From an uncultured bacterium (lineage in GTDB: Bacteria > Armatimonadota > UBA5829): a stretch of 64,000 bases of DNA. The stretch spans positions 248,001-312,000 of the forward strand of contig CALJES010000003.1 of assembly GCA_938074205.1 (NCBI GenBank), given 5' to 3'. This document shows, one piece after another, positions 34,201 to 38,997 of this stretch (its first letter is position 1; every line of letters begins with the position of its first letter). The notes below the pieces were generated by a model. It did not search any database and had not been told where the DNA came from. It saw only the letters and a list, made by a program, of their open reading frames with translations. Both the position numbers and the translations under genes were made by a program.

Positions 34201-35469
34201 ATGGGTAGTTGTTCATCAGGCTCCAACCTTGCGAATCCGTTCGCGATTGCACAGGCACAACTGGATAAGGCTGCTGCTAAGATTGGGCTTGATCCTTCGG
34301 TTCATGCGGTGCTACGAGAGCCAATGAGGGAATTGCACGTAACTCTCCCGGTCCGTATGGACGACGGAACAGTCAAAGTGTTCAAAGGCTTTAGAGTGCA
34401 ATACAACGACGCTCGAGGTCCGAACAAAGGCGGCATACGCTTTCATCCAGATGAAACTATCGATACAGTGCGTGCTCTGGCTGCGTGGATGACGTGGAAG
34501 TGTGCTGTGGTCGACATCCCCCTGGGCGGTGGAAAAGGCGGTGTAGTGTGCAATCCAAAGGAGATGTCGGAAGCGGAGCTCGAGCGCCTGAGCCGTGCAT
34601 ACATAGACCAGGTAGGGCGTATCCTTGGGCCTGAAAAAGACATACCAGCTCCGGATGTGTACACCACTCCGCAGATCATGGCCTGGATGATGGACGAATA
34701 TTCAAAAATAACAGGCTACCACGCTCCGGGTGTGATTACGGGCAAGCCGCTTGCAATTGGTGGTTCAGAGGGCCGAGGGGATGCAACGGCACGCGGCGGC
34801 GCTTACACGGTTCGCGAAGCTGCCAAACACTTAGGGATAGATCTCACAAAGTCTACTTGTGCCATCCAGGGGTTTGGCAATGCTGGACAGTATGCTGCAC
34901 TGCTTTTCTCAAGTCTGCTCGGTTGTAAGATAGTGGCAGTTAGCGACACCAAAGGCGGTATCTATAACGCAAACGGACTCGATCCCCAGCAAGTGGTTGA
35001 GCACAAGCAGATAACGGGTTCCGTGGTTGAATTACGAGGTGCGAGCCAGATATCGAATGAGGAGCTACTAGAGTTGGATGTGCAAATTCTTGTTCCTGCG
35101 GCTCTTGAAGGTGTGATTACGGAACACAACGCACCTAACATCAAAGCCAAGATCGTCTGCGAGCTTGCTAATGGACCTACAACGCCGGAGGCTGACGAGA
35201 TACTTTACGAAAGGGGTGTCTTTGTTATTCCAGACTTCCTTGCAAATGCTGGCGGAGTGACTGTGTCCTATTTCGAGTGGGTTCAGAACCTAATGAACTA
35301 CTACTGGGAAGAAGAGGAAGTTCACGCCAAGCTCGACAAGAAGATGACGAAAGCTTTCGCGGATGTGCTCTCAGCTTCGCTGGAACACAATGTAGACATG
35401 CGCACTGCCGCATATATCGTGGCTATTCAGCGCGTGGCTGAGGCCATGAAGCTTAGAGGCTGGGTCTAA
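34201..35469 (+). CDS. gdhA: Glutamate dehydrogenase (NAD(P))
   Basis: 422 residues, the hexameric GDH size. Motifs: [19 protein letters not shown] near 61, [16 protein letters not shown] near 105 (catalytic lysine region), [19 protein letters not shown] near 150, and [12 protein letters not shown] near 222 (dinucleotide fold). It converts glutamate and 2-oxoglutarate plus ammonia. GGAGG lies 9 bases before the ATG. The leader upstream holds three hairpins and a strong terminator follows, so it is probably a single-gene transcript. Cofactor preference cannot be read with confidence. Confidence 0.96.
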
Positions 35470-36460: not shown

Positions 36461-36823
36461 ATGAATCGCGCTATATACATTCTTGCAGCACTGGTAGTCG
36501 GCGGATTCGCTGTCTTAGGGATGATAGAGCTGATCCATGTTCAAACCCCTTATTGCCGATTGGTTTCCGATGTGCAATCTATTACTGATAGGCCGGTCTG
36601 GTTCTTGGGAAATATAATCCACCATAGGACTTCTTACGACAATTCTGCGCACGAGCTGACTTTCGTATTGCGGGATCCACGAGGTGATATAGTCAGGGTT
36701 CTCTATAAAGGTCTTAAACCGAAAGGTTTCGACAAGGCGCGGCAAGCCCTTGTGCGGGGTTACTGCTATGGAAAGGAGATAATTGCGCACCAGATTATAC
36801 TCGACAAGACTGCACCTTACTAG
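36461..36823 (+). CDS. CcmE-like OB-fold protein lacking the heme-binding His
   Basis: 120 residues. An N-terminal membrane anchor (IYILAALVVGGFAVLGMI) is followed by the CcmE beta-barrel: FLGNIIHHRT, ELTFVLRDPRG, VLYKGLKPKGF, LVRGYCYGKEIIAHQIIL. CcmE carries heme to cytochrome c on a His (or Cys in a second type) just before the final Tyr; here the segment reads LDKTAPY, with Thr in place of that residue. A heme-chaperone role by covalent heme attachment is therefore unlikely. It precedes siroheme synthase by 20 bases. The mRNA appears near-leaderless. Confidence 0.7.
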   Translation: MNRAIYILAALVVGGFAVLGMIELIHVQTPYCRLVSDVQSITDRPVWFLGNIIHHRTSYDNSAHELTFVLRDPRGDIVRVLYKGLKPKGFDKARQALVRGYCYGKEIIAHQIILDKTAPY

Positions 36824-36843: not shown

Positions 36844-37476
36844 ATGGCCTACTACCCTATAGTAGTTGACCTGAGAGGGAAGAAGTGTCTTGTTGTTGGG
36901 GGAGGGCAGGTTGCGCTGCGAAAGGTGCGATCACTGCTGGAAACCAGTGCAAATGTTACCGTGATAGCACGCGAGATAGTTCCACAGTTGACTCAGATGA
37001 AAGGCGTAGAGTTGATTGCTCGCGAATATAATCGGGGCGATGTCAAGGGGTTTACTCTCGTATTTGCTGCCACCGACAATCACGAAGTCAACAAATTGGT
37101 AGCTGAGGACGCAGCTGCAAACGGAATTCCGGTAAACGTGGTGGACTGTCCCGAACTCTGCTCGTTCATCGTGCCGGCGGTTGTGCGGCGGGGGGATCTG
37201 TTAATCGCAGTTACTACTTGCGGTAAGAGCCCGGCTCTGAGCCGTAGGATACGCGAGGAGATCGGAGCTCGCTATGGCTCAGAGTACGAACTGCTTGTCG
37301 ATTTACTTGGCAAGTTGAGACCTATTGCCAAATCTAAATTTCCTTCGCAAAAAGACAGAGAAAAGGCTTTGAAACGCATTATCGAGAGCGATGTTGTGGA
37401 GCTCTTGCGCAAGGGGTTGATTTCTGAGGCGGAGAAGAGAGCCATGGAGTGCTTTGAGTCGACTTCGGAGTTGTAG
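36844..37476 (+). CDS. Precorrin-2 dehydrogenase / sirohydrochlorin ferrochelatase (CysG N-domain, Met8-like)
   Basis: 210 residues. NAD fold GKKCLVVGGGQVALRKVRSL near 12, then NVVDCPELCSFIVPAVV near 100 and ITTCGKSPALSRRIREEI (VTTCGKSPALSR) near 124, the siroheme-synthase motif. The length matches Met8-like enzymes without the methyltransferase domain, which make siroheme or feed the siroheme-dependent heme route. Directly follows a CcmE-like gene. No strong ribosome site before ATG 36844. Confidence 0.92.
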   Translation: MAYYPIVVDLRGKKCLVVGGGQVALRKVRSLLETSANVTVIAREIVPQLTQMKGVELIAREYNRGDVKGFTLVFAATDNHEVNKLVAEDAAANGIPVNVVDCPELCSFIVPAVVRRGDLLIAVTTCGKSPALSRRIREEIGARYGSEYELLVDLLGKLRPIAKSKFPSQKDREKALKRIIESDVVELLRKGLISEAEKRAMECFESTSEL

Positions 37477-37478
37477 CT

Positions 37479-37502
37479 CGTGCACATATTCGTGCACATA
37501 TT
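37479..37502. repeat. Tandem 12-bp repeat at a convergent gene end
   Basis: CGTGCACATATT occurs twice without gap (37479-37490 and 37491-37502), between the siroheme-synthase stop and the lnt stop. Confidence 0.8.
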
Positions 37503-38997
37503 ATTTTGCTACCTTGACAAGACCACGTATGCCGATTATACCAACTGTTGATATTATGCCCAGACACACATAGATGAACCAGTCGCCATACCTGACGTAA
37601 GGGGTGGCTGAATTCAGTGCTACTACTTTGCACTGAAGAATACCTTTTTGAAAGAGTCCCAAACTAGAGCAGATTCGTCCGTGGGGATCTATTACTGCGG
37701 AGATTCCAGTAGCGGCTGCACGAACAACATATCTGTGTGTTTCAACTGCTCTTAGCCGTGCCATCATCAAGTGTTGCTGCGCAGCATTGGTGCGTTTGAA
37801 CCATGCATCATTGGTTAGAATAACCAGGAGTTTTGCACCGTGCCGTGCTTCTTGGGTAGTCACTGCGGGAAAGATGGATTCAAAACAGATAGCTGTCCCC
37901 ACTGCTCCTAGGCTTGTTTTTATAACGTTGTGTGTCTTTCCGGGCAAGACATCCACTTCTCTGATCCCGTATTTCTTGAGCCACGGCATTTGTTTCCGAA
38001 ACGGTACGTACTCCCCGTATGGGACCAGGTGCACTTTACGGTATACACCGATTCTGCGTCCGGATTGGTCAAAGAAATGGGCCGCGTTATAGTTTCGTCC
38101 TTGCGGATCGCCTGACCAATCGTAACCACCCACGATGAAGTTCGCGTTCGTTTCTTTGGCTAGTCTGCCAATGAGAGGTCCCCAGGCCTGGTCAGTTATA
38201 CAGTCTACTATTGTTGTTTCGGGCCACACTATTATGTCCGGCTTATCGAGTGCGGCAATTTGAGTCATAGCTGCATGGGTTGCATATGCTTCGACCACAT
38301 ACTCAGGCTTTGGGTTCACATCATGCGTCATAGAAGCCTGGACTATGGCGACTTTGATGTGTTTCTTGTCTGCAAACGAACTTTTGGTGAGCGCGAAGTA
38401 CCCATAGATCCAAGTTGCAGCGATAATGGTTGCGACTAGTGAAACTCGGAAACACATTGTCTTTCTGCAGGCGCGCTCGGACGCATGAAAAATCACATCT
38501 GCCAGGACTGTATTTGTACTGCATAGTAAGAAATCGATTGCCCAAGGACCTGTCAGAGCGCTTATTTGAATGATCGGCAACACGTCGGCTTGCGAATGGG
38601 CAAAGCTGCCCCAAGTGAACCCCAGCGGTCCAAATACGCGAGCCCACTGGATAACTGTCCAAACGGTGGGGATCACTAAGTAAGATGAAGTCCTAATCGG
38701 TTCCTGCAAGAATCGGGAAACAGTGGCCAAAAACAAAGCGAACCAAAGAGCCTCCTTTGCTGATACCAAAAACCAAGGAAGATACCCAAAAATAACTAGC
38801 CATCGGCAGATAAGTCCAAAATACACGAACCCTGAAACAAACCCGATGAGCGCTGCTCTTTTTGATGTTGTTCCTTTTGCAGCAATCAAAAGTGGTACTA
38901 GACCAAACCAACTGGCCGTCCACCATCCTGGTTCGGGCAAGGCCGTTGCCAAAACCAAACCGGAAGCTATAGCTAACACAATGTCTCTTTTTTTCAT
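37501..38997 (-). CDS. lnt: Apolipoprotein N-acyltransferase
   Basis: 498 residues. Six to seven N-terminal membrane helices, then a nitrilase-like domain with VWPETTIVD (Glu), YRKVHLVPYGEYVPF (Lys) and GTAICFESIFPAVT (Cys), the Glu-Lys-Cys triad. It adds the third acyl chain to lipoproteins; its presence implies an outer-membrane lipoprotein pathway. The ATG is 5 bases from a palindromic TATAAT, so its mRNA may be leaderless. Confidence 0.95.
   Translation of the reverse strand: MKKRDIVLAIASGLVLATALPEPGWWTASWFGLVPLLIAAKGTTSKRAALIGFVSGFVYFGLICRWLVIFGYLPWFLVSAKEALWFALFLATVSRFLQEPIRTSSYLVIPTVWTVIQWARVFGPLGFTWGSFAHSQADVLPIIQISALTGPWAIDFLLCSTNTVLADVIFHASERACRKTMCFRVSLVATIIAATWIYGYFALTKSSFADKKHIKVAIVQASMTHDVNPKPEYVVEAYATHAAMTQIAALDKPDIIVWPETTIVDCITDQAWGPLIGRLAKETNANFIVGGYDWSGDPQGRNYNAAHFFDQSGRRIGVYRKVHLVPYGEYVPFRKQMPWLKKYGIREVDVLPGKTHNVIKTSLGAVGTAICFESIFPAVTTQEARHGAKLLVILTNDAWFKRTNAAQQHLMMARLRAVETHRYVVRAAATGISAVIDPHGRICSSLGLFQKGILQCKVVALNSATPYVRYGDWFIYVCLGIISTVGIIGIRGLVKVAK

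Follow-up and report, generated by a model that had tools for sequence, protein, structure and literature searches.

CcmE is defined by the heme that it carries covalently, and a CcmE without a heme ligand, kept by selection although its maturation system is otherwise lost, would show that the function of its barrel is separable from heme carriage. Does such a protein exist in nature? We asked this of a gene in the window analyzed here, a stretch of 64,000 nucleotides from the genome of an uncultured bacterium of the Armatimonadota (G000). The gene (36461..36823, + strand) starts with ATG and encodes 120 amino acids; by reading frame, profile, structure prediction and alignment it is a ccmE-like gene for a membrane-anchored OB-fold protein without the heme-attachment His or Cys.

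The window gene encodes a CcmE homologue

The Pfam CcmE model (PF03100) matched the window protein just above its curated cut-off (25.3 against 24.6 bits; E=2e-5), and a profile of the protein and its relatives, compared with solved structures, retrieved E. coli CcmE 1sr3 (3e-6) and 8ce8_E (4e-6), aligning the tail of the window protein to LAKHDENY of E. coli CcmE. The CcmE equivalog model NF009727 gave 28 bits, below its cut-off of 126, for the window protein, the one protein scored with it. The AlphaFold2 model places a transmembrane helix at residues 3–27 (36467..36541, +), which aligns with the MNK/MNR...PY N-terminus of relatives, followed by a five-stranded OB barrel at residues 46–114 (36596..36802, +; pLDDT about 90–95), so that the predicted architecture is that of CcmE. 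Foldseek searches with this model returned the CcmE structures 8ce8_E, 1j6q and 1lm0 as top matches. In VIA-align, many OB folds other than CcmE scored similarly to the window protein, and it is therefore the sequence match that decides membership. A preliminary description of this DNA had named the protein a CcmE homologue with its beta-barrel kept, and both the sequence and the structure comparisons agree.

The heme ligand is missing throughout a genus

We compared the window protein with those of relatives assigned to Armatimonadota through named matches; the closest genomes, G001 and G002, form one genus with G000. The window protein ends in ...QIILDKTAPY and has no in-frame C/HxxxY. Its tail codons for DKTAPY (36803..36820, +) align in place of the KCPS(K/R)Y of relatives and put a lysine, Lys116, at the ligand position four residues before the tyrosine. 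The same lysine is found in G002, and in both proteins the tyrosine is the final residue; it is absent from G001. Among the 61 relatives, 28 CcmE proteins were found: KCPS(K/R)Y, a CxxxY motif, is present in 25/25 outside the genus and in none of the three within it (DKTAPY in G000 and G002, SRQSE in G001), so on these alignments the ligand loss is common to the whole genus and derived. A phylum-wide screen, which gives match ranges and not motifs, found CcmE in 198/291 genomes; among the matches listed, the weakest being left out, all reach model position 95 at least, into the motif, compared with 88–90 in the genus. Our literature search found no relevant paper on CcmE in Armatimonadota.

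A frameshift or assembly artefact was ruled out as the source of the altered tail. DKTAPY is identical in G000 and G002 despite four synonymous codon changes, and an out-of-frame CAPDY that occurs once in G000 does not occur in G002. The earlier reading that LDKTAPY stands where His or Cys is required is thus upheld, in frame and in a second genome. Across the three orthologues of the genus, the start methionine is the only conserved His, Cys or Met, and a conserved heme ligand is unlikely, since the G001 orthologue has zero His and zero Cys. The genus proteins lack the His or Cys (H/CxxxY) that a functional CcmE heme chaperone requires.

As a separate observation, genome G003, of a sister genus, holds eight further weak matches to the CcmE profile (contigs C61, C71, C137, C36, C140, C81, C94 and C205; L176, L178–L184), several of them within open frames of about 700–2600 codons. 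These are probably OB-like domains of giant proteins and not CcmE.

The partners of CcmE are gone

Genome-wide profile searches of G000, which covered CcmE, CcmB, CcmF and Cytochrom_C_asm, returned a single CcmE, that of the window, and neither CcmB nor CcmF. Only two Cytochrom_C_asm proteins were found, the ResB-linked CcsA and HemX, so CcmC is absent too. The CcmC loader and the CcmF acceptor on which a functional CcmE heme chaperone depends are therefore missing from G000, and a second functional CcmE, considered as a candidate, was not found by the profile search. The search for a ccm operon proposed in the preliminary description has thus yielded CcmE only, and its statement that no other ccm gene is present extends from the window to the genome for CcmB, CcmF and CcmC (CcmA, a generic ABC ATPase, lay outside the profile search). 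DNA remnants of ccmA, ccmB, ccmC, ccmF or hemA were not detected around ccmE: no match was better than E=0.02 and none adjoined ccmE-met8, with ccmE and met8 controls at about 1e-30 or better.

Directly downstream lies met8 (36844..37476, +), which encodes a precorrin-2 dehydrogenase-sirohydrochlorin ferrochelatase of the CysG N-terminal type, as indicated by profile and by a tree with ccm-linked Met8 of sister genera. As first described, it starts 20 bases past the ccmE stop; its TIGR01470 score is 160.7 bits, above the cut-off of 62.3, and the central and dimerisation domains are present. All three genus members keep the pair together: the gaps are 20 and 25 bases in two of them, and in the third met8 begins 1 base past the stop of ccmE. 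What lies upstream of ccmE varies. On the other strand follows an lnt-like gene for an apolipoprotein N-acyltransferase (37501..38997, −; named by eye), a synteny anchor that comes after met8 in the genus and after hemA in some sister genera. The window also encodes, at 34201–35469, a glutamate dehydrogenase whose best NCBIfam model, the archaeal GdhA, scored 652 bits, below its cut-off of 750.

Probable replacement of a System I operon by System II

Five relatives within the family (G003, G004, G008, G011 and G013) carry ccmA-ccmB-ccmC-ccmE-ccmF-met8-hemA at this locus, with lnt next in some, and the arrangement is identical in G015, a member of the same taxonomic order; the genes were assigned by eye from their sequences, and profiles confirmed CcmB and CcmF. 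In the genus, ccmE-met8 and then lnt are all that remains. ResB is present and CcmB and CcmF are absent in 3/3 genus members, whereas g2 and g3 have CcmB and CcmF and lack ResB. In genus g4, ResB occurs and CcmE does not; f5, likewise with System II, has no CcmE either. In genera g5 and g6 (G006, G007, G010, G012), ResB, CcmB, CcmF and CcmE were not found, and cytochrome c maturation is apparently lacking.

G000 and G002 have a ResB-CcsA-HemA-HemX cluster; in g4 and part of f5 a similar cluster also contains met8. Both WWD proteins of G000, CcsA and HemX, carry WGxYWxWDPKE, and the host combines ResB, a CcsA with the WWD motif and a CXXCH client. The client is a cytochrome with seven CXXCH motifs, intact in G000, G001 and G002 and with orthologues in the System I relatives G004 and G008. 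A broken cytochrome in G000 was considered and rejected, as the reported stops lie at or after the protein's natural end. In G000 this seven-CXXCH cytochrome (L141; C4:78436-80142) is fused to a membrane part resembling the formate dehydrogenase gamma subunit. By gene content, it is evidently System II (ResB-CcsA, with hemA-hemX linked to it) that matures the cytochromes c of the genus.

Gene trees bear on how the exchange came about. The genus Met8 groups with the ccm-linked copies of g2 and g3 (support 83/89) and the genus HemA with ResB-linked copies (86/87), both supports being moderate and under a strict threshold. These groupings fit two operons that once coexisted, followed by reciprocal loss of redundant copies. 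In a LysS species tree, in which the rows for G007 and G016 are wrong ORFs, the genus is monophyletic and the branching order of genera is not settled; the genus sample is three genomes, one of them 67% complete. Very probably, then, the window ccmE is the survivor of a System I operon that was dismantled, the genus now relying on System II. On this account ccmA, ccmB, ccmC, ccmF and the operon's hemA disappeared, and ccmE was retained without its heme-attachment cysteine.

Heme supply and the siroheme neighbor

Beside its ResB cluster, G002 carries ahbD-ahbA-ahbB-ahbC-cobA/hemD. AhbB was found in G000 and in 14/19 genomes of the class (L101, L191), and ferrochelatase in 0/19 of the same genomes; the class apparently makes heme through siroheme only. 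With AhbB found and no ferrochelatase, Met8 most likely works in heme synthesis itself, which would explain its place in a cytochrome c maturation operon.

This bears on the suggestion, made when the gene was first described, that the protein binds a tetrapyrrole non-covalently. It could serve the adjoining siroheme-dependent heme pathway from the periplasm, carrying or buffering heme, siroheme or some other tetrapyrrole; its CcmE ancestry, the adjoining Met8 in 3/3 genus members and the siroheme route to heme in this class speak for such a role. The neighborhood itself is ancestral: since relatives have ccmABCEF-met8-hemA and Met8 here serves a heme synthesis that runs via siroheme, the adjacency of ccmE and met8 gives no hint of siroheme binding. 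The transmembrane anchor should put the CcmE domain outside, whereas Met8 would be expected to work in the cytosol. The genus orthologues share neither His nor Cys, and no Met beyond the first residue; G001 is devoid of His and Cys altogether. In E. coli CcmE, NMR revealed no heme site on the structured barrel (PMC6204919), and the C120A protein of M. acetivorans carries no heme (PMC9084895). Tetrapyrrole binding is thus weakened to an improbable reading.

A second, independent neighborhood of this kind occurs in family f6 (G042, G055; L024, L025), where met8 directly follows a ccmE with KCPSKY intact and CcmF lies on another contig. Because the cysteine is intact there, the adjacency alone is uninformative about ligand loss.

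The ligand-free protein is under purifying selection

Is the gene a relic? Its defining residue and all System I partners searched for are gone, as would be expected of a functionless gene that has not yet been lost. Between G000 and G002, whose CcmE proteins are 76% identical, omega is 0.095 (NG86; bootstrap 0.043–0.165) and about 0.16–0.17 by YN00 and LWL85; dS is near saturation, which makes these values approximate, and they rest mainly on this one pair. The intact ccmE pair G004–G008 gave 0.176 (0.097–0.298), and met8 of G000–G002 gave 0.147. Differing ccmE codons comprise 46 synonymous-only and 29 nonsynonymous, and 61/97 differences fall at third positions. The three genus frames are open down to 55% identity; at 0.5 substitutions per site, a neutral frame would have a probability of about 0.02 of remaining open. 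A pseudogene was rejected, with an omega of 0.095 not above that of intact ccmE. The codon patterns indicate that the Cys-less ccmE is under strong purifying selection, its omega as low as that of intact ccmE; neutral drift is unlikely, and a relic is hard to credit.

Selection might instead act on the frame as a leading cistron that supports met8 expression, through its promoter and translational coupling, and not on the protein. The position of ccmE, always 1–25 bases before met8 while the genes upstream differ among genus members, would suit such a role. Coupling requires an open frame but not a conserved protein, and the low omega and conserved barrel residues require selection on amino acids, which leaves this explanation quite improbable.

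A possible role by protein contact

The protein could still be a heme chaperone through another attachment residue, such as Lys116, delivering heme to System II. Lys116 occupies the exact ligand position, with Tyr at +4, in G000 and G002. G001, however, has neither Lys nor Tyr there, CcmC, CcmB and CcmF are all missing, and System II elsewhere in the class works without such a chaperone; we regard this possibility as slight. Covalent heme carriage by the genus CcmE in general is very unlikely by its residues and gene context, because residue, loader and acceptor are gone and the Cys-to-Ala change removes heme in M. acetivorans.

The best overall explanation, which we hold with moderate confidence, is a leftover CcmE that has lost heme carriage and is retained as a membrane-anchored OB-fold protein. 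It would sit in the periplasm and no longer carry covalent heme. The other role that the preliminary description had allowed for is likely, given the lost ligand, the lost partners and purifying selection. There is about an even chance that the Cys-less CcmE acts by protein contact without heme, and a slightly smaller one that it is now a heme-free part of another process, for example as an accessory or regulatory subunit on a WWD protein of System II or HemX, or in the siroheme-to-heme route.

In E. coli it is protein contacts, not heme contacts, that hold CcmC and CcmE together (PMC6204919). The likeliest partner would be CcsA or HemX, the remaining WWD-motif proteins, of the same heme-handling superfamily as CcmC, the natural partner of CcmE. 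As the only WWD proteins found, these are the first candidates, though we name them tentatively and think either one doubtful. Against such docking, by analogy, stands the E. coli cryo-EM structure, where CcmB is the sole CcmE contact (PMC10457321), and CcmB is missing from G000. That the System II genera g4 and f5 do without CcmE indicates that ResB-CcsA does not generally require it.

Comparison with known systems

If true, retention of CcmE as a heme-free protein would be a natural split of the docking role of its OB fold from heme carriage. The genus also offers a clean bacterial example of System II taking the place of System I, with two redundant heme operons each losing copies that the other kept. 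With the System I Cys-type CcmE (CxxxY) of Desulfovibrio and Methanosarcina acetivorans, the window protein shares the transmembrane anchor and the OB barrel, and it is orthologous by synteny and sequence to the KCPS(K/R)Y CcmE of sister genera. In contrast to Cys-type CcmE, it lacks the ligand Cys and the C-terminal tail, and its genome has System II in place of CcmB, CcmC and CcmF. E. coli CcmE H130A, which imitates in the laboratory the state that precedes heme attachment, is likewise a CcmE fold without the attachment residue, whereas the genus case is natural, fixed and maintained by purifying selection where the rest of System I is gone. Switches from System I to system III in Archaeplastida mitochondria (PMC10879542) also exchanged the machinery for cytochrome c maturation; here the switch is bacterial, System II replaces System I, and one altered ccm gene is retained.
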